DNA from: a virus
Reading direction: 5' to 3' (one strand)
Virus record (IMG/VR): IMGVR_UViG_3300025132_008407
Location: 1-43,559 of that record
DNA length: 43,559 bases
Part shown: piece after piece, positions 5,823-35,307 of the stretch
How the letters are laid out: each line of letters starts with the position of its first letter
Numbering within the stretch: the stretch's first letter is position 1
Made by a program: the position numbers and the translations under genes
The notes under the pieces: generated by a model
Seen by the model: the letters and a program-made list of their open reading frames with translations, nothing else
Told to the model about the DNA's origin: nothing
Database searches by the model: none

Positions 5823-6955
5823 TTAAATGGCCACTAATGGATAATGCGATCCCTTTGGATCAACGTACAGCTCTTTCAGACTTTATACTAAACGGTGATA
5901 AATTTTCACAAGGTAAATATGTTAGAGAGTTTGAAGAAGAGTGGTCAAAATGGCAAGGTTGTAAATATTCTGTTTTTGTAAACTCTGGATCGTCTGCTAA
6001 TTTTTTAGCAGTACACGCACTAAATAACTACGATGAAACTAAAGGTTGGGTATCTCAAGCCTGTACCTGGTCGACCACAGTATCACCTATAATATTATCT
6101 AAAAATAAATTAAGCTTATGTGATGTTAATTTACCTAATTTAGATCCGGATCTCCATACCTTAGAATATATTTTTAATTTAAATAAACCTAAATACTTAT
6201 TCTTAGCTCACCTACTAGGTTTTTGTGCTTTATCACAAGAACTATTAGATCTTTGTAAAAAGTATAATGTCGAGCTACTTGAAGATTGCTGTGAATCACA
6301 TGGAACTACATATGATGGGGTAAAAATAGGTAATTTCGGTAAAGTATCAACTTTTTCATTTTACTACGGTCATCACATGACTACTATTGAAGGTGGTATG
6401 GTGTGTACAAATGATAAAGATATATATGAAAAACTTTTATTGCTTAGATCTCATGGGTTATTAAGAGAACTGCCAGAGGAAAGTCAGCAAAAGTATAAGA
6501 AGGTAAATAAAAATTTTACCTTTATAACTCCTGGGTTTAATGTAAGATCGTGCGAATTAAATGCATACTTAGGTTTATTACAATTAAAAAATTTAGATAA
6601 ACATAATAAAATTAGACAAAATAACTTTAATCATTTTGCTAAAAATTTAGATAATAAAAAATATTTTAATAATTTTAAAGTAGAAGGTAACAGTAGTTTT
6701 TGTTTCCCTATTATTACTAAAAATAAAGATCAAAAAGATATATTATTAGAAAAATTAACTAAAGAAGGTATTGAAACCAGGCCAGTTATAGCTGGTAATC
6801 TTTACAACCACCCATTTATAGATGGGGTAGTTGATAAGATAATGAATGTAGATGATAAAGCTAATTACGTTCATGAAAATGGATTTTATGTAGGTAACAA
6901 TCATAATATATCTATAACTGAAGTAGATTGGTTGCTTAATCTTTTAAATGAATAA
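5819..6955 (+). CDS. DegT-family PLP enzyme with His for catalytic Lys (ColD/RfbH-like sugar 3-dehydratase)
   Basis: A fold-type I sugar aminotransferase homologue of 378 aa with VNSGSSAN (54-61) and EDCCES (155-160). In the active-site motif, normally SFxxxK-xxxxEGG, the sequence is SFYYGHHMTTIEGG (180-193), so His185 stands where the Schiff-base Lys should be. In ColD (GDP-4-keto-6-deoxymannose 3-dehydratase) and the CDP-sugar E1 enzymes the same Lys-to-His change marks 3-deoxygenation instead of amino transfer. Gmd in this window makes the ColD substrate and the adjacent Fcl-like gene could complete GDP-colitose. The exact sugar is inference. It overlaps both neighbours (4 and 8 nt). Confidence 0.75.
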   Translation: MIKWPLMDNAIPLDQRTALSDFILNGDKFSQGKYVREFEEEWSKWQGCKYSVFVNSGSSANFLAVHALNNYDETKGWVSQACTWSTTVSPIILSKNKLSLCDVNLPNLDPDLHTLEYIFNLNKPKYLFLAHLLGFCALSQELLDLCKKYNVELLEDCCESHGTTYDGVKIGNFGKVSTFSFYYGHHMTTIEGGMVCTNDKDIYEKLLLLRSHGLLRELPEESQQKYKKVNKNFTFITPGFNVRSCELNAYLGLLQLKNLDKHNKIRQNNFNHFAKNLDNKKYFNNFKVEGNSSFCFPIITKNKDQKDILLEKLTKEGIETRPVIAGNLYNHPFIDGVVDKIMNVDDKANYVHENGFYVGNNHNISITEVDWLLNLLNE

Positions 6956-12350: not shown

Positions 12351-13029
12351 GAGATGTATAGTTAGTTTCGGTAAGGGATATAATTTTGAAAAAGGATTAG
12401 ATAGACTTCAAAAAAATATTGATGATATAGTAAAGGTACCTTTTGTAAGATTTACAGAGTATCCAGAAAATTGCCCGGATCATAAAGTATCACCTTTTGC
12501 TTTTAAATTTTATTGTATCAAAGAATGTGCTAAAAAATATGATACAATTTTATGGGTAGATTCATCTGTAATTATTAAAAATAATTTAGAAGATATCTTT
12601 AATACTTTAGATAACCAAGGTTATTTCTTTATTAGAAACCACCACTCTGTAGGAGAGTACTGTCATGATAAAGCTCTAGATACACTTAAAATAGATAGAG
12701 ACTTATCATTTAAAATACCATGTGTACAAGGTACACAATTTGGATTAAATTTTAAATTTGAAAATACCCATAAGTTTTTAGATAAAATTATAGATCTAGC
12801 AAATGATGGTATAACCTTTCCAGGTCCTTATACAAATGAAAATAATATTGCTTCAATTCATGAACATGTTTGCGGTCATAGACATGATCAGACTGCTATG
12901 TCAGTTGAAGCATTAAGATTAGACATGAATCAATGGTGGCAGGGCGGAGAAAGCCAGTGGTTTATTCATGACAGAAGTTACGTCAAAGATTGCGATAGTA
13001 CCGTAGTAGATATAAGGATGAGTTATTAA
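12343..13029 (+). CDS. Putative GT-A glycosyltransferase
   Basis: DTILWVDSSVIIKNNLEDIF (67-86) looks like the D-x-D-containing strand of retaining GT-A enzymes, with D73 followed by Ser in place of the second Asp. HRHDQTAMSVEAL near residue 183 resembles the conserved H-D-Q-T/S block that follows the active site in many such proteins. It is the last gene of the first glycan operon. Its stop codon overlaps the convergent HAD gene by 4 nt. Family and substrate are uncertain. Confidence 0.5.
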   Translation: MSKRCIVSFGKGYNFEKGLDRLQKNIDDIVKVPFVRFTEYPENCPDHKVSPFAFKFYCIKECAKKYDTILWVDSSVIIKNNLEDIFNTLDNQGYFFIRNHHSVGEYCHDKALDTLKIDRDLSFKIPCVQGTQFGLNFKFENTHKFLDKIIDLANDGITFPGPYTNENNIASIHEHVCGHRHDQTAMSVEALRLDMNQWWQGGESQWFIHDRSYVKDCDSTVVDIRMSY

Positions 13030-13340
13030 AAGAAATCCTTATCTAGGCAACCTTTATCATCTACAAAAATATCAGCGCCGGGTTTACCTAAAAATAAATC
13101 ATGATATTTTAAATTCCATGAATCAAGCTGCTCTTTAGTAAGATTATAATATTTTGCGTATGCTTTTATAGGGTTATTATTAGTACTACCCATACCTCTA
13201 GCAGTTAACACATATATTGTATGACCATCTTCATATAAACTATTAACATAATCAATTCGCTCTTTTATAGGAGTACTATCTCTATAATCACTACCTTCAG
13301 TAACACATAGTGTGTTATCAACATCAAAACAATAAGTCAT
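13026..13340 (-). CDS. Small HAD-superfamily phosphatase
   Basis: All HAD motifs are present in 104 residues: FDVDNT (5-10, nucleophile D6 and acid/base D8), LTAR (45-48), K86 in LGKPG and the DD pair at 94-95 in IFVDDK. There is no cap domain, as in small C0-type phosphatases such as GmhB or capsule-linked KdsC-like enzymes. It is the last gene of the minus-strand sugar operon. After a kinase and before an adenylyltransferase, a phosphatase step is exactly what the ADP-heptose pathway uses (GmhB removes the 7-phosphate). Assigning that step here is inference. The ATG shares one base with the talC stop. Confidence 0.75.
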   Translation of the reverse strand: MTYCFDVDNTLCVTEGSDYRDSTPIKERIDYVNSLYEDGHTIYVLTARGMGSTNNNPIKAYAKYYNLTKEQLDSWNLKYHDLFLGKPGADIFVDDKGCLDKDFF

Positions 13341-14020
13341 TATATCCAGTTTTTAAAGTCATTAGTAAATTGCTCAATCGAAGCAGTTGTACCAGGGTGT
13401 GTAGAACTTTCTTTAACTACATTAAAACCTGCTGTTACGATATGGGAACCAGAACTCCAAGCATCTGTAATATCTTCAGGTTTTCTAATACTACCAGAAA
13501 TAATTTCGCAATTTAAATTATTCTCTTTAATAAATTCATTAGTTTCTTGAAGAGCGAAATGAACCGGTACTTTGCTATCTCTAGCTCTGTTATAGAATAG
13601 AGAAACATATCTAGCACCAGCAGCTGCTCCAAGCATTAATTGAGCACTTGTATAACAACACGTACAATTAATATCAACTCCTATACCAGCTAATGATTCA
13701 ATTACAGGAAGCTCATCCCACCCAATAGGAATTTTAATATTTAAATTATCATAGTCGATATGTTTTTTCAAGCTAATTGCTTGTTGTTTAATTTCTTCTG
13801 GTTCAATTGCAAACACTTCAACACTAAAAGGAATTTCATTACCGGTAATATCACTCTTATCCTTCAAAAGGTTAGCAATTTTTTGCATATGTTCAATATA
13901 ATCAGCTTTAGGTTCTTTTGACATAAGAGATGGGTTAGTAGTTACCCCGCTAATTATACCTCGATCGATAGACTCTGAAATCTCATCAATATTAGCAGTA
14001 TCAATAAATAATTCTCGCAT
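13340..14020 (-). CDS. talC: Transaldolase / fructose-6-phosphate aldolase family (TalC type)
   Basis: A 226-aa protein of the short TalC/FSA class: FIDTAN (5-10), GVTTNPSL (25-32), the Schiff-base Lys K96 in NIKIPIG, and SLFYNRARD (140-148). These enzymes swap dihydroxyacetone units between sugar phosphates (fructose-6-P, sedoheptulose-7-P, erythrose-4-P). TalC is a known cyanophage metabolic gene, usually linked to pentose-phosphate flux. Here it lies within a sugar-activation operon, so it may also supply a ketose phosphate precursor. The start is the ATG at 14020; the frame opens further upstream only with TTG. It lies 22 nt after the cupin gene. Confidence 0.85.
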   Translation of the reverse strand: MRELFIDTANIDEISESIDRGIISGVTTNPSLMSKEPKADYIEHMQKIANLLKDKSDITGNEIPFSVEVFAIEPEEIKQQAISLKKHIDYDNLNIKIPIGWDELPVIESLAGIGVDINCTCCYTSAQLMLGAAAGARYVSLFYNRARDSKVPVHFALQETNEFIKENNLNCEIISGSIRKPEDITDAWSSGSHIVTAGFNVVKESSTHPGTTASIEQFTNDFKNWI

Positions 14021-14042
14021 ACTATATTTTATATTATTATTT

Positions 14043-14453
14043 TTAATTTTCAACAAATTTATACGTTTTACCGTCTTCTACTATATGCGAATCATTATCA
14101 TCATCTGTAGTACTTACTTCTATAATAACAGTATCTTGTATTGCCATACGCATATGCATTAAACCTACAGGTATATGCACTACATCTCCTTCATTAAGAA
14201 TAATTGATTTATTTTCTGCTCTCCCTATTCTTAACCCTAGTTTAAGTTGACCTTTATCGATATAATAAGATTCTTTTTTATGAACATGATACTCCATACT
14301 ACTTTGTGTACCAGCTCTCATAAAAATTTTCTTTATACTATAACCATCTTGATCAAAAAGAGTTGACATATTACCCCAATACTTTTCTTCAGCTTTAACT
14401 ACCCCTTCTACGTTTGGTAGCTCTCGTATTCCATATTTGTTATCTTTGTCCAT
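14043..14453 (-). CDS. Cupin protein, sugar-phosphate isomerase/mannose-1-P guanylyltransferase C-domain-like
   Basis: A single-domain cupin of 136 aa. HVHKKE (56-61) and HIPVGLMH (93-100) provide the metal ligands H56, H58, E61 and H100. The surroundings (KKIFMRAG, YHVHKKESYYIDKG, VIIEVSTTDDD) resemble the type II phosphomannose isomerase cupin that follows ManC. It might isomerise a sugar phosphate or nucleotide sugar in the operon. ATG 14453 lies 14 nt inside araD; a TTG ten codons earlier is possible but less likely. Exact activity is unknown. Confidence 0.6.
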   Translation of the reverse strand: MDKDNKYGIRELPNVEGVVKAEEKYWGNMSTLFDQDGYSIKKIFMRAGTQSSMEYHVHKKESYYIDKGQLKLGLRIGRAENKSIILNEGDVVHIPVGLMHMRMAIQDTVIIEVSTTDDDNDSHIVEDGKTYKFVEN

Positions 14454-15141
14454 AATATTTTGTTGTTCCGTGTTTTCTATCAAAATGTTTATCTAATAAA
14501 GACTTCGATAGTTTGTGATCACAAACTCTCATCTTTTCAGTTAAGAAAGCTAATTTAGCTATCTCTTCTATTACTATAGCATTTTCTAATGCTTGTTGTT
14601 TTGTGGTACCCCAAACATACACCCCATGGTTCGGCAACAAACACCCAGGCATTTTATTGTAATCTATTTTATTATCCTTAAAATAATTCACAATACTCAA
14701 TCCTATATTTCTTTCGTAATTATTCTCTATTTCATTTTTGAGTAAATCGTAGACTATAGGTATATCACCGTAAAAATAGTCAGCATGAGTTGTACCGTAG
14801 CAGCTAATAGGCCTTCTAGCTTGTGCAAAAGCAGTACAATATTGAGAATGAGTATGAATAATATAATTCACCTCCTTAAAACTTTTGTATAGTTCGATAT
14901 GAGTCGGAGTATCTACCGAGGGGGATTTACCCCTTGCAGTAGTACCGGTAGTAATAGTCACTCTACTTAAGTTACCTACTTCGAGTTTAAATACGTCTAT
15001 ACCTGAAGGTTTTATAATTACTTGATTGTTAACTCTATCAATACCGCTAGCATTACCCCATGTTAGCTTAACAAGCCCCTCACTAACAACTTCCTGATTT
15101 AGTTCTATAACGTTCTGATATAATTGATTTAAATAGTTCAT
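14440..15141 (-). CDS. araD: L-ribulose-5-phosphate 4-epimerase (AraD family)
   Basis: It aligns along its whole length to E. coli AraD as I recall it. TWGN (27-30), KPSGID (44-49), D77, H96, H98 and H172 match the zinc/substrate site. D121 in HADYFYG, H219 in LLDKHF and Y230 in KYYGQ match E. coli catalytic residues 120, 218 and 229, all shifted by one. AraD interconverts L-ribulose-5-P and D-xylulose-5-P. In an operon with an isomerase, kinase and adenylyltransferase it probably provides an unusual pentose phosphate. The start at 15141 overlaps the kinase by 59 nt; the N-terminal length agrees with AraD, so this long overlap appears real. Confidence 0.9.
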   Translation of the reverse strand: MNYLNQLYQNVIELNQEVVSEGLVKLTWGNASGIDRVNNQVIIKPSGIDVFKLEVGNLSRVTITTGTTARGKSPSVDTPTHIELYKSFKEVNYIIHTHSQYCTAFAQARRPISCYGTTHADYFYGDIPIVYDLLKNEIENNYERNIGLSIVNYFKDNKIDYNKMPGCLLPNHGVYVWGTTKQQALENAIVIEEIAKLAFLTEKMRVCDHKLSKSLLDKHFDRKHGTTKYYGQR

Positions 15142-15982
15142 AACTTGGAGGTGTTGCGCCTTTCGTTTCAGTCGCTAAGCTAGCCCATATATTACAATAA
15201 TCTAAAGCTTTTAAGGAATTATCCAAACTAACAAGAGATGCCATAGCTGTAAAGCTATCTCCCGCACCGCAAGTATCGACAACCTCTGTCTCTCTTGGAG
15301 GGTAAATTATACCGTTATATTTACAGCCTCTGCTACCTAAAGTAGTAATACTTTCTGACCTTAAGTTATAAAATTGTTCCTCCTCTTCATTTAAAATAAA
15401 TAACGAGCAATTTTCGAATTTTTGTAGTTTAAGATCTTTTTTTATACCCCAATCAGAAAGTTGTGTATTAACTATACAAGGTTTTTTCTTACTTCTACAA
15501 AGCTTAATAGTAGAAATAGTTAAATTTTCTGATAAAAATCCCCCTCTATAATCGCTCAAAATAACCGAATCATATTCATCAATTATTTTAACCAATTCGC
15601 TTAAAACTTTATCCTCTTCCTCTTTTTTTAAGGTTAAAATACTTCCATAATTTATCTGAAGATGCTTGTAATTATTACCCTTACGATTTACGTAATATCT
15701 ACTTTTTACAGTATGCTGTCTATCTAGGTTAAAGTATTTTACATTATTTTCATTTAATATGTCCGATATAGTAGAATCATTAAATGTAGTAAAGAAACAA
15801 ACCTCTCGATCTAAAGCCCTTAAATTCATTACCAGATTTCCAGCTCCTCCGAGTTGCTTCTTTTCTGAAATATACTCAGCCTTAAGAGTCGGTGACTCTA
15901 GTGAGAGACCAACAGCTTCTGTATACGTATATACATCGGAGATCAAGTCTCCTATTACTAAAACTTTTTTACGTTCGAACAT
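15083..15982 (-). CDS. PfkB-family sugar kinase, HldE N-domain/HldA-like
   Basis: It opens KVLVIGDLISDVYTY, close to the HldE kinase start (V-GD-D-Y-Y), then GGAGN (45-49) and the catalytic GAGD (239-242) in VVDTCGAGDSF. LNEEE (197-201) fits the P-loop-proximal ribokinase region. The 299-aa size equals one HldE kinase domain. HldE phosphorylates heptose-7-phosphate at C1; its partner adenylyltransferase domain is encoded by the gene just upstream, fused to RpiB. The true substrate may be a pentose phosphate because AraD and RpiB are in the operon. Its 5' end overlaps the fusion gene by 14 nt. Confidence 0.75.
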   Translation of the reverse strand: MFERKKVLVIGDLISDVYTYTEAVGLSLESPTLKAEYISEKKQLGGAGNLVMNLRALDREVCFFTTFNDSTISDILNENNVKYFNLDRQHTVKSRYYVNRKGNNYKHLQINYGSILTLKKEEEDKVLSELVKIIDEYDSVILSDYRGGFLSENLTISTIKLCRSKKKPCIVNTQLSDWGIKKDLKLQKFENCSLFILNEEEEQFYNLRSESITTLGSRGCKYNGIIYPPRETEVVDTCGAGDSFTAMASLVSLDNSLKALDYCNIWASLATETKGATPPSYELFKSIISERYRTKSGSC

Positions 15983-16844
15983 TTTCTTTAACCTTTTCTA
16001 TAACTTTAGTTGTTGAATACGTTACCTTATCAAATAAAGGAGATATTTTTATATCTATATGTGATGGTATATTATCTCTCTCCCTTACCTCATCAGCAGT
16101 AAACTCCCCTCCCTTAACAACTATATCTGGATTAATATCATTTATTATATCTTCAGTTTTGATATTATCAAAAATTACTACCTCATCTACTACAGATAAG
16201 GAAGTAAGAATATTTTTTCTATCGTTTTCATTAGTTACTGGTCTTTCTGGACCTTTTAATTCTTTAGTAGCTCTATCTGAGTTTATACCAACAACTAATT
16301 TGTCTCCTAAACTCTTAGCAAAATTTAAAACTTCAATATGACCTAAATGTAGCAAGTCAAAAATACCATTAGTAAAAACTACCGTCTCGGGCTTATGGTC
16401 TGATATTTTTTCAACTCGTTTTACATGTCTTCCTTCACCAAAAGGTGTATCAAGCCACTGCTCTAAAATTTCCTTAGCATTTCTTGTAGTAGATATCCAA
16501 CTACCTAAACATAATACATTAGAATTATTATGCTCTCTACATTTTGGAGCAGAATCTAAATTATGAACTAATGCTGCTCTTACATTTTTAAATCTATTAG
16601 CTGCTATACTCATTCCTACTCCCGTTCCGCAAATAAGAATGCCTTTTTCTATGTCTCCGTTATGTACTATAGAACTAAGTTGATTCGCGTAATCAACATA
16701 ATCTACGCTATCAACATCACTATAAGGTCCTATATCGATAGGATTATAACCCGCCTCTTTGAGCATACTTTTCAACTCATTTTTTAATACGACACCGTTA
16801 TGATCGCTAGCTAAAACTATATTTTTGTCTATCGTTTTCAACAC
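15969..16844 (-). CDS. Fusion: RpiB-type sugar-phosphate isomerase + HldE-type nucleotidyltransferase
   Basis: Residues 1-148 are ribose-5-phosphate isomerase B: SDHNG (13-17), catalytic Cys72 in ICGTGVGMSIAAN and REHNNSN (103-109). Residues 150-291 are a HldE C-domain/RfaE2 adenylyltransferase: FTNGIFDLLHLGH (157-169) with H166-x-x-H169, NSDRATK, KGPERPV (197-203) and a final YSTTKVI. RpiB moves aldose/ketose phosphates; HldE-C attaches AMP to a sugar-1-phosphate. I know of no described fusion of these two. Together with the kinase, AraD and HAD phosphatase it suggests an ADP-pentose or ADP-heptose route. The start is GTG 16844 (TTG next codon), placed 5 nt after a -10 box. Confidence 0.85.
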   Translation of the reverse strand: MLKTIDKNIVLASDHNGVVLKNELKSMLKEAGYNPIDIGPYSDVDSVDYVDYANQLSSIVHNGDIEKGILICGTGVGMSIAANRFKNVRAALVHNLDSAPKCREHNNSNVLCLGSWISTTRNAKEILEQWLDTPFGEGRHVKRVEKISDHKPETVVFTNGIFDLLHLGHIEVLNFAKSLGDKLVVGINSDRATKELKGPERPVTNENDRKNILTSLSVVDEVVIFDNIKTEDIINDINPDIVVKGGEFTADEVRERDNIPSHIDIKISPLFDKVTYSTTKVIEKVKENVRT

Positions 16845-17779: not shown

Positions 17780-18361
17780 ATGATTATTGATCAACAAGTT
17801 TATAACGGAGACCTAATTCACGAGCGCTTTGCTTATAAATTCTTTCGAAAAGACGTCTCACCTTTTGGTAATATTGTAGCTTTTAGAGCTCCTATGTATG
17901 TTAGTGATAACCTTATCGATTTAGAAGATACTTTAGCTAAAGATTTTATTCATTCTGATGACTCTATTAATTTTTGCTGGGAGATACCTAATCTCTGCCC
18001 ACTTGGAGCTGTAGCCTTTCAACGGCTATTTAATACTACTATTGCATCGATGTTAGGTCAATCGATTAATAAGAGTATATCCATGGATGGTGATGATATC
18101 ATGGTAAATGATACATTTATTGGAAGTGATGATAAAAAGTATGAGCGCGGTAAAGTTAGTGTTTCTATTACCTATAGTAAGGATAATGTAGCGCTAGGTC
18201 ATACCGGAATTAATATTAATGCTGGAAAGAAAGCCCCGGGGTTTGCTTATTCTTCTGGATTAGAAGATTCGCAAGCTGAAAACGTCATGGAGGCTGTTAT
18301 TAGTGCTTTTAATAGTGAGGTAAAAGATCAGTGGATAGCAACTACTAAAATTATTGTATGA
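17780..18361 (+). CDS. DUF366-like protein
   Basis: The segment IVAFRAPMYVSDNLIDLED (residues 32-50) and the following FIHSDDSINFCWEIP match my recollection of the DUF366 family, known mainly from archaea and some phages. The later KVSVSITYSKDNVALGHTGI also fits its conserved second half. DUF366 has no established activity; a fold resemblance to lipoate/biotin ligases has been suggested. The gene begins a transcription unit and overlaps gmd by 4 nt, hinting at co-expression with GDP-sugar synthesis, but no functional link is known. Confidence 0.55.
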   Translation: MIIDQQVYNGDLIHERFAYKFFRKDVSPFGNIVAFRAPMYVSDNLIDLEDTLAKDFIHSDDSINFCWEIPNLCPLGAVAFQRLFNTTIASMLGQSINKSISMDGDDIMVNDTFIGSDDKKYERGKVSVSITYSKDNVALGHTGININAGKKAPGFAYSSGLEDSQAENVMEAVISAFNSEVKDQWIATTKIIV

Positions 18362-32124: not shown

Positions 32125-33165
32125 ATGAGGATTGAAACTGATCTGAAATATGACTTTGATGATGTCTTAATTAGGCCAAAAAGATCGACGTTATCGTCGA
32201 GAAAAGAGGTTGACTTAAATAGAACGTTTAAATTTAAATATGGTGGTTCATATCATGGTATACCTGTTATGGCTGCTAACATGGATGGAGTTGGTACGTT
32301 AGAAGTAGGAAGAACTTTAAGTGACTTAGATCTTTTTACTTGTTACAAGAAGGACATTGATGAAAAGGAGCTTATTGAAGAGCTAAAAGATAATCAAGGT
32401 AAACATGTAGCTGTTACTGTAGGTAGAAGTCATCATGATTATGATACGTTGTCTATTATTAACAAGAAAGTACCATTACGTAATATCTGTATTGATGTAG
32501 CAAATGGTTACTCACAGGCATTTGTAAGTTGTGTAAGGGTGGTAAGAAAAATGTTCCCTAAGAGTAATATTATTGCAGGTAATGTTGTAACAGGTGAAAT
32601 GGTAGAAGAGTTGCTTTTAGCTGGAGCTGATATTGTTAAAGTAGGCATTGGTTCAGGAAGTGTGTGTACAACTAGAATTAAAACAGGTGTAGGTTATCCG
32701 CAGTTTAGTTGTATTGCTGAATGCGCTGACGCTGCTCACGGTTTAGATGGTCATATTATTGCTGATGGAGGTTGCACGACACCTGGTGATGTAGCTAAAG
32801 CGTTTGGCGCCGGCGCTGATTTTGTAATGTTAGGGTCTATGTTAGCTGGATCGACAGAAGGAGGAGGTGAAAGGATTACTATAGATGATAAAGAATATGT
32901 TGAGTTCTACGGAATGAGCAGTAAGAAGGCTAACGAGAAACATAACGGAGGCTTAAAGGACTATAGAACTTCTGAAGGACGTAGAGTTGTTCTTCCATAT
33001 AAAGGACCTATGCGCTATATTGTTCAAGATATTTTAGGAGGCATTAGAAGTACATGTACATATGTTGGAGCAGCTAAGCTAAAGCATCTAAGTAAATGTG
33101 CTACTTTTGTAAGATGTACAAAAACTCATAGTAAAATATATGAATCAAATACTTTAGAAATATAA
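32125..33165 (+). CDS. guaC: GMP reductase
   Basis: It matches E. coli GuaC almost end to end as I recall it: MRIETDLKYDFDDVLIRPKR, VANGYS, AGNVVTGEM, the catalytic Cys181 in GSGSVCTTR, GVGYPQ, DGGCTTPGDVAKAF and FYGMSS. The length is 346 aa against 347. There is no CBS domain, which separates it from IMP dehydrogenase. It reduces GMP to IMP with NADPH, releasing ammonia, so guanine nucleotides can re-enter the adenine branch. In an AT-rich phage this could raise dATP; it also touches the pool used for GDP-sugars. It heads an operon with a glycosyltransferase and a rhamnose-type enzyme. Confidence 0.95.
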   Translation: MRIETDLKYDFDDVLIRPKRSTLSSRKEVDLNRTFKFKYGGSYHGIPVMAANMDGVGTLEVGRTLSDLDLFTCYKKDIDEKELIEELKDNQGKHVAVTVGRSHHDYDTLSIINKKVPLRNICIDVANGYSQAFVSCVRVVRKMFPKSNIIAGNVVTGEMVEELLLAGADIVKVGIGSGSVCTTRIKTGVGYPQFSCIAECADAAHGLDGHIIADGGCTTPGDVAKAFGAGADFVMLGSMLAGSTEGGGERITIDDKEYVEFYGMSSKKANEKHNGGLKDYRTSEGRRVVLPYKGPMRYIVQDILGGIRSTCTYVGAAKLKHLSKCATFVRCTKTHSKIYESNTLEI

Positions 33166-34860: not shown

Positions 34861-35307
34861 ATGCACAAAGAAGGTTTATTGGGTTTTACCGCAGGTAATT
34901 TTGATTTATTACACCCGGGATATATTAGATGCTTTAGAGAGGCTAAGCGTCATTGTGATAAGTTTATAGTTTTTTTGCAGAAAGACCCCTCCTTGCATAG
35001 AAAGAGTAAATATAAACCAGTTATATCTCTCTACAATCGTTATGAAGCGTTAATGGCTATAAAATATATTGACGATGTCTATACATATCAAACTGAAGAA
35101 GAGTTAGTTAATCTAATTAAATTCTGGAAACCTGATATTAGAATACTTGGCGAAGATTATATTGAAAAAGAATCTTTTACTGGAGATGATTTACCTCCTA
35201 AAATAATTTACACTACACGATCGCATGAATGGTCAACTACTAAATTAAAAGATCTTATTACGTTACAAACTATTAAACAAAATCCAGATATAATAAAGAA
35301 AAAATGA
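34861..35307 (+). CDS. Nucleotidyltransferase (cytidylyltransferase/RfaE2-like)
   Basis: GFTAGNFDLLHPGYIRCF (8-25) is the nucleotide-binding signature of the glycerol-3-P cytidylyltransferase/HldE-C superfamily, but the usual H-x-G-H reads H18-P-G-Y21, losing the second His. A late segment, RSHEWSTTKLKDL, contains the conserved S-T-T-K. Length (148 aa) is that of a single catalytic domain. It would join CMP or AMP to a sugar or polyol phosphate; loss of the second His may lower or alter activity. It has its own promoter and is followed at 4 nt overlap by rmlB. Confidence 0.65.
   Translation: MHKEGLLGFTAGNFDLLHPGYIRCFREAKRHCDKFIVFLQKDPSLHRKSKYKPVISLYNRYEALMAIKYIDDVYTYQTEEELVNLIKFWKPDIRILGEDYIEKESFTGDDLPPKIIYTTRSHEWSTTKLKDLITLQTIKQNPDIIKKK

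Follow-up and report, generated by a model that had tools for sequence, protein, structure and literature searches.

The window analysed here is the whole of a linear 43.6-kb virus record from IMG/VR (IMGVR_UViG_3300025132_008407), which displays T4-like features, such as the tail sheath stabiliser gp15 and a DNA helicase (phrog_2488). In addition, it encodes epimerases/dehydratases of nucleotide sugars, aminotransferases and some glycosyltransferases that could be recognised. On its minus strand, at positions 13026-16844, lies an operon of six open reading frames (ORFs), among them a fusion of an isomerase with a nucleotidyltransferase (Table 1). The six ORFs overlap by 1, 14, 44, 59 and 14 bases and lie on the strand opposite to that of both neighbouring genes. 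Their positions are as given in the original prediction, and Pfam and NCBIfam searches bear out the six families that it had read from the sequence alone. The operon is not a chance arrangement, since further viral contigs show the same set and order of genes.

Table 1. Genes of the six-gene operon, with their positions in the window
Product	Position	Strand	Basis of assignment
RpiB/LacAB-type isomerase fused to HldE-C-type nucleotidyltransferase, 291 aa, GTG start	15969..16844	-	Pfam, NCBIfam
PfkB sugar kinase, HldA type	15083..15982	-	TIGR02198 below cut-off, AlphaFold model, PDB matches
AraD, L-ribulose-5-phosphate 4-epimerase family, facultative member	14440..15141	-	Alignment to E. coli 1JDI
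Cupin of a single domain, putative isomerase or epimerase of sugars	14043..14483	-	Cupin_1, GMP_PMI-like
TalC-type transaldolase	13340..14056	-	TAL_FSA; Glu80 and Phe154 as in aligned solved transaldolases
HAD phosphatase, EcbF-BcbF type, 104 aa, T4-GC306 homologue	13026..13340	-	TIGR01689 below cut-off, phrog_1238

The fusion had been recognised as such beforehand, and it is indeed a true one: a single in-frame ORF holds both Pfam domains, with residues 9-147 matching LacAB_rpiB (1.9e-49) and residues 158-283 matching CTP_transf_like (5.4e-20). Among the NCBIfam models, rpiB scores over its cut-off (153.1 vs 138.65 bits), while rfaE_dom_II (TIGR02199) remains under it (144.1 vs 181.5 bits).

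Recurrence of the operon in viruses and bacteria

An alignment-based scan of IMG/VR recovered 51 loci, 49 of them with a full-length fusion (L003-L005, L100-L145); in L146 the match is confined to the RpiB half, and L147 is truncated by the end of its contig. The viral fusions, many of which are near-copies of one another, are 45-95% identical to that of the window, and with a bacterial one (L018) added, the resulting set of 50 falls into 32 groups at 90% identity. Gene presence was counted in the 28 uncut representatives, with L004, L107, L116 and L018 being cut at most 3.5 kb after the fusion. The kinase, the cupin and TalC are found in 28/28, the HAD phosphatase in 27 and AraD in 24, and no family beyond the operon reaches half of the groups, the next commonest in the clustering being present in 14/32.

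The prevailing order is fusion, kinase, AraD, cupin, TalC, HAD. AraD precedes the kinase in L139/L140, L144 and L018, and the HAD gene directly precedes the fusion in L108, L110 and L139 and is at a distance of over 5 kb in L125, L132 and L136. AraD is absent from L100, L101, L123 and L143, and because its presence requires at least three changes on the fusion tree (for example, two losses and one gain), it is dispensable, unlike TalC. The gene had been described as an addition to the ADP (adenosine diphosphate)-heptose gene set, which agrees with its presence in most of the uncut representatives.

The fusion was also sought outside the uncultured viruses. Of 50,697 phage isolate records 71 match at E 1e-5, none of which has a single match spanning 80% of the fusion, and the same is true of all 763 matching plasmid records. 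One full fusion was present among the best 80 of 591 stretches of a bacterial genome scan. In scans of bacterial spread that started from the fusion of L018, with a threshold of E 1e-40, it was detected in 1/396 genomes of the L018 phylum (L018 itself), 1/298 of the phylum of a Gemmatimonadetes genome, 0/398 and 0/245 of those of a Rhodospirillales and a Neomarinimicrobiota genome, and 0/4 of the genomes used as centres of the phylum scans. Both bacterial contigs, L018 and L313, end before the expected TalC or HAD. Their fusions are 98% identical, although the metagenome-assembled genomes that they come from are assigned to different bacterial phyla, a pattern that points to a recent transfer, to a mobile element or to contamination common to both.

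Coordinated residue changes in three enzymes

In the isomerase half, the catalytic Asp, Cys, Thr and His and the C-terminal Arg pair of RpiB are all kept, and D14, H15, Y49, C72, T74, H105, R139, H140 and R143 are invariant in 32/32 relatives. Against this conserved background we compared 33 fusions, window included, with 79 bacterial RpiB sequences from the genome scan (best 80 of 591 stretches). N16 and Q55 each occur in 33/33 fusions and in 0/79 bacterial RpiB, and W116 in 33/33 and 1/79, respectively, with Arg being the residue at the latter position in 74/79 of the bacterial proteins. Further differences concern position 50 (Val in 28/33 fusions; Pro in 74/79 bacterial RpiB) and position 101 (Lys in 27/33 fusions; mostly Leu, 31, or Met, 27, in the bacterial set). 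The sole bacterial RpiB with Trp at 116 (L032) is not fused and has no recognised operon genes adjoining it. A separate viral scan with a canonical RpiB yielded, among the best 80 of 187 loci, 73 stand-alone proteins and seven fusions, and the idea that all viral rpiB genes are fusions was thus rejected. The stand-alone viral proteins have Gly or Ala at position 16 (73/73) and Arg (71) or Phe (2) at position 116, while all seven fusions have N16 and W116.

By alignment and spacing, W116 probably occupies the site of the phosphate-binding Arg113 of the M. tuberculosis RpiB, whose equivalent would hence be replaced by Trp in every fusion. The LacAB galactose-6-phosphate isomerase, a member of the same superfamily, likewise lacks this Arg and uses LacB Arg39 instead, according to the excerpt of PMC3755991 used here. 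The position aligned with LacB Arg39 is Ser in 17/33 and Lys in 12/33 fusions, and Arg is not among the residues listed for it.

The transferase half, whose nearest solved relative is 5x9q, which we take to be HldC, shares with ordinary transferases the nucleotide motifs NGxFDxxHxGH, KG..RP and S[TS][TS]. Elsewhere it departs from them: the GGD...VG of the ordinary enzymes becomes GGE...RxRD, with GGE in 33/33 fusions versus GGD in 49/51 comparison transferases, and RxRD in all 33 fusions at a site mostly occupied by V/I-G in the comparison set.

The kinase matches PfkB and TIGR02198 (108.6 bits; cut-off 345), and its AlphaFold model (predicted local distance difference test score, pLDDT, 92.1) has HldA chains of B. 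cenocepacia as its seven best PDB matches. K93, R95, D144 and D242 are kept in 31/31 relatives. We aligned 32 operon kinases, window included, with E. coli HldE, Azospirillum RfaE1 and 78 viral kinases from fusion-less loci, drawn from the best 80 matches of a related-kinase scan. The residues R31, R118 and K179 (E. coli numbering) are kept in 78/78 viral relatives and are G, Q and Q, respectively, in 32/32 operon kinases; D120, equally invariant in the relatives, is N in 29/32. K154 too is kept in 78/78 relatives and is most often replaced by Cys, His or Gly in the operon kinases, although the pattern used for the related-kinase search overlapped this column, unlike those of R31, R118, D120 and K179. 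In the window the pocket changes are G25, Q109, N111 and Q174. Thus, residues predicted to face the sugar appear to have changed together in three enzymes whose catalytic residues are kept.

The remaining enzymes of the operon

AraD scores over the cut-off of PRK08193 (264.5 vs 257) and under that of the equivalog TIGR00760 (237.5 vs 389.1). It matches the E. coli AraD (1JDI) at 6e-55 with the catalytic residues aligned, as the original prediction had it, and D77, H96, H98, D121, H172 and Y230 are found in 27/27 relatives. We take H96, H98 and H172 to be the zinc-binding His triad and D121 and Y230 to be the acid/base residues of the epimerase.

TalC belongs to the TAL_FSA family of Pfam, its best NCBIfam match being the fructose-6-phosphate aldolase model at a score below the cut-off (136 of 245.95 bits). 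Fructose-6-phosphate aldolases carry Gln and Tyr where transaldolases carry Glu and Phe; by alignment, Glu80 and Phe154 of TalC agree with the solved transaldolases 3r8r, 1vpx and 6yrm. D19, N41, K108 (the Schiff-base Lys), F154, R157, S189 and R191 are kept in 29/29 sequences and E80 in 28/29.

The cupin matches Cupin_1 and the GMP_PMI-like model, its structural model has a pLDDT of 90.3, and H66, E71, H110 and E122 are found in 31/31 relatives. Among its nearest folds are phosphomannose isomerases, D-lyxose isomerases and the cupin domain of CapF, alongside many other cupins, and these are not separable from one another. We accordingly made no functional assignment from the fold, given that the CapF cupin domain (Z 15.5) ties with a nucleoside dehydratase (14.6).

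The HAD protein reaches 39.7 bits with the EcbF-BcbF model (cut-off 162), is 41-51% identical to its cyanophage homologues and has the catalytic Asp residues intact, D6, D8 and D95 being common to 25/25 relatives. Compared with 22 homologues from ordinary cassettes it shows no residue shift like that of the kinase or the transferase. In cyanophage records L007-L010 the HAD of the T4-GC306 type is labelled as a phosphoheptose isomerase; it aligns with the window HAD rather than with an isomerase.

Comparison with ordinary cassettes and known systems

The 78 fusion-less viral loci with a related kinase contain the transferase half in 50 cases, the cupin in 53, the HAD in 22 and a homologue of nucleoside diphosphate (NDP)-sugar epimerases in 44-48, and RpiB, TalC and AraD occur in 0/78 over flanks that extend to at most 8 kb. 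The original prediction saw RpiB as standing in for GmhA. In agreement with this, SIS_2 (PF13580, the GmhA family) has no match in the 50 operon records, window included, these records being fragments for which a host GmhA is possible. The same profile matched in 9/14 named control genomes and scored over its cut-off in two of 50 RpiB-less cassette records (50 of the 78). Given the 0/50 SIS_2 matches and leaving the cupin aside, no candidate for the aldose-ketose isomerase other than RpiB was seen.

Three contigs (L105 and L106, which are near-copies, and L112) provide an internal control, as each has, some 4-5 kb away from its fusion, another kinase and another transferase. The second cassette has the kinase residues R, R, D, K, K and the transferase motif GGD...VG/IG, while the operon kinase and transferase of the same contigs carry the altered set. 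An ordinary kinase-transferase-cupin cassette and a fusion operon are therefore encoded on one contig, the simplest reading of which is two activated sugars in one phage.

With the ADP-D-glycero-D-manno-heptose pathway (GmhA, HldE, GmhB) of Gram-negative lipopolysaccharide (LPS) the operon would share the logic of isomerase, C1 kinase, distal phosphatase and adenylyltransferase, and its kinase and transferase are homologous to the domains of HldE. It differs in the 0/50 GmhA-family matches of the operon records, in the fusion of RpiB to the transferase, in the EcbF-BcbF type of its HAD, in the added transaldolase, AraD and cupin, and in the predicted sugar-facing residues of three enzymes.

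Closer at hand are the cyanophages. In the stretches examined, S-SSM7, P-TIM68, S-T4 and S-SM2 have separate homologues of the transferase, HAD and cupin, an annotated sugar kinase being there in S-SSM7, P-TIM68 and S-SM2 but not in S-T4, and in those three the four homologues lie near each other. In the part of Sullivan et al. (2010; PMC3037559) drawn upon here, T4-GCs 304, 305, 307 and 308 are grouped with 260, 265 and 266 as co-occurring LPS genes of then unknown function, with P-SSM2, S-SM2 and S-SSM7 as the phages that carry the cluster. Hence, the kinase-transferase-HAD-cupin core is already known and is not new, and to this extent the earlier statement that no described phage operon of this kind is known needs qualifying; the part of it that concerns the fusion and the complete operon stands, in that we recognised no description of either in the open-access literature. 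Unlike the fusion operon, cyanophage-type cassettes keep the HldE-type kinase and transferase residues. The operon would thus represent the known viral sugar-activation core joined to its own precursor supply and isomerase, with the core itself apparently retuned. A further parallel is the arabinosyl-hydroxymethylcytosine module of RB69, a T4-like phage that decorates its DNA with arabinose and is believed to supply itself with an unusual nucleotide sugar; in the passages of PMC6024577 used here the sugar is known from DNA chemistry, and the candidate genes for the NDP-arabinose module, which code for SIS-type and other proteins unrelated to those of the operon, are speculative.

A proposed route to an activated sugar and its alternatives

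In our assessment, the operon probably encodes a self-contained phage route to a nucleotide-activated aldose, most likely an ADP-sugar, other than ADP-D-glycero-D-manno-heptose, with the pentose branch being judged apart below. In such a route, TalC would form a ketose phosphate from host pentose-phosphate intermediates by transferring a dihydroxyacetone moiety onto an aldose phosphate; when the acceptor is erythrose 4-phosphate, transaldolase gives sedoheptulose 7-phosphate. Where present, AraD might invert C4 of the ketose phosphate via the same C3-C4 bond cleavage. The RpiB half would then turn the ketose into an aldose phosphate, of which the HldA-like kinase is proposed to phosphorylate the anomeric O1; the HAD is proposed to take off the distal phosphate, and the transferase half would join the resulting sugar 1-phosphate to AMP (adenosine monophosphate). 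The cupin may act somewhere on this chain or on its product, and glycosyltransferases would finally pass the activated sugar to a surface or virion glycan. All these reactions, their order and the use of the sugar are projected from homology and residue patterns. The original prediction of an ADP-heptose-like route holds up in that homologues of the isomerase, 1-kinase, phosphatase and nucleotidyltransferase are all present.

Granted this route, a non-manno heptose is the likeliest product at somewhat under an even chance, a pentose is a substantial but lesser possibility, and any other sugar is rather unlikely. Sedoheptulose 7-phosphate would yield manno-heptulose 7-phosphate with AraD and thereby a galacto-configured heptose, and a gluco-configured one without it; with a pentose substrate, AraD and the isomerase would lead to L-arabinose 5-phosphate. 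The presence of TalC in 28/28 uncut operons versus 24/28 for AraD favours a heptose, and the basic residues lost in the kinase pocket favour a pentose. The more far-reaching proposal of a dedicated, mobile and host-independent six-gene phage route with three retuned sites, leading to an undescribed nucleotide sugar such as ADP-D-glycero-D-galacto-heptose or ADP-L-arabinose, strikes us as evenly balanced.

That the product is an NDP-pentose has a smaller, though not negligible, probability. AraD would here make L-ribulose 5-phosphate from D-xylulose 5-phosphate, the altered RpiB half would convert it into L-arabinose 5-phosphate, from which the kinase, HAD and transferase would form ADP-L-arabinose, and the transaldolase would do no more than feed the pentose phosphate pool. 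L-arabinose 5-phosphate (2R,3S,4S) has the configuration that LacAB handles in galactose, and the RpiB half lacks the same phosphate-binding Arg as LacAB, with Lys at the LacB Arg39 position in some fusions. The complete catalytic set of AraD, a kinase pocket without the basic residues invariant in HldE-type kinases and the precedent of RB69 arabinose are also consistent with a pentose. However, this route needs AraD more than TalC, which is the reverse of what the uncut operons show, no transketolase is encoded among the six genes, and the LacB Arg39 position is mostly Ser.

An ordinary ADP-D-glycero-D-manno-heptose pathway with RpiB replacing GmhA, improbable in our estimate, would explain the same order of chemistry, HldA as the nearest solved relative of the kinase and 5x9q as that of the transferase half, and the want of SIS_2 in the 50 records. 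It is hard to reconcile with an isomerase, a kinase and a transferase that all deviate at invariant or nearly invariant positions, and with the three contigs that have an ordinary cassette close to the fusion operon. It is very improbable that the genes are an auxiliary set of pentose-phosphate metabolism that channels ribose 5-phosphate into phage nucleotide synthesis, as the portion of PMC4022391 cited here proposes for viral rpiB. TalC is a common carbon-metabolism gene of cyanophages, and rpiB is reported as enriched in viral metagenomes, going by the excerpts of PMC3037559 and PMC4022391. Nevertheless, nucleotide supply leaves the nucleotidyltransferase fusion and the linkage to a 1-kinase, a HAD and a cupin unexplained, and the phosphate site of RpiB is changed in the fused proteins, whereas the stand-alone viral ones keep Gly or Ala at position 16 and nearly always Arg at position 116. 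The nucleotide-synthesis reading may hold for the canonical stand-alone viral RpiB, not for the fused type.

Several observations weigh against the favoured route to an activated aldose other than D-glycero-D-manno-heptose. The loss of several basic residues from the kinase pocket fits a 7-phosphate at the same distance poorly and may favour a shorter sugar. AraD may be accessory rather than a pathway step, the rest of the operon being kept without it, and the AraD proteins of L018, L139 and L144 are just 28-34% identical to that of the window. In some loci the HAD gene is separate from the operon, and in L144, alone among the 28, it was not found in the locus; cupins occur in the RpiB-less cassette as well. 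The sugar-facing role of the changed residues comes from alignment rather than from a complex, and ATP (adenosine triphosphate) as the nucleotide is an assumption taken from the homology with HldE. Finally, the comparison sets were chosen by motif patterns and from limited lists, which biases some columns; RpiB columns 16 and 116 and the kinase columns R31, R118, D120 and K179 of E. coli are unbiased by the choice of sets. The frequency of GT9 glycosyltransferases, taken up in the next section, is a further such point.

The glycans of phages can influence superinfection, the use of receptors and restriction resistance, and for uncultured phages little is known about the sugars involved; the operon would offer a compact pathway made of known enzyme families. 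A viral rpiB of the fused type may be part of nucleotide-sugar metabolism instead of nucleotide metabolism, with N16 and W116 as its markers. Likewise, the residue sets of the kinase and transferase separate two kinds of viral sugar-activation cassettes, both of which are now annotated as heptose or LPS genes.

Genomic context

Two GT9-like transferases, a family that uses ADP-sugars, had been suggested at 6948 and 25317 of the window, but neither gives a hit in Pfam with E relaxed to 5, and PF01075 (GT9) has none in the window record at E 0.001. We compared the window and 49 operon records with 50 control records out of 80 loci retrieved with a GDP-mannose-dehydratase query, near-copies being kept: PF01075 scores over its cut-off in 9/50 operon and 4/50 control records (Fisher p 0.23), and at E 0.001 it is matched in 14 and 5 records, respectively (p 0.04). 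With so weak an enrichment and no member in the window, a GT9 partnership was treated as no evidence. A survey of both flanks, in which 89 proteins picked from 231 listed were searched against Pfam at E 0.01, revealed GT9 (7), FkbM methyltransferases (7), Glycos_transf_1 (6), Glyco_trans_1_2 (6) and GT11 (4). These flanking genes fit a glycan, and no single partner stands out. L313 (6.1 kb, from the phylum of the Gemmatimonadetes query) is the sole bacterial contig with a longer upstream sequence; it has flippase-like and methyltransferase-like ORFs upstream of the fusion, named by eye, which resemble surface polysaccharide clusters.

In 12-14 of the 32 groups (e.g. L104, L105, L112, L113 and L141), a conserved block of four genes lies upstream of the fusion. 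Families 7, 8 and 11 of this block are GT4-type glycosyltransferase-like and family 10 is PD-(D/E)XK nuclease-like, with the family 8 member assigned from Pfam and the rest by eye.

The window has a second, stand-alone HldE-C-like nucleotidyltransferase (phrog_7878) at 34861-35307, between RmlD-like and GDP-mannose-dehydratase-like genes, with no related kinase recognised alongside it. A gene of the IMPDH/GMP-reductase family is embedded in the sugar-gene region at 32125-33165. At 17780-18361 the window encodes a DUF366 protein, and a neighbour of the same length and family occurs upstream of the operon, about two genes from the fusion, in L003, L004, L100 and L101, with the Pfam DUF366 match obtained in the two neighbours tested. 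This neighbour, common to the window and four further loci, suggests one shared insertion site.

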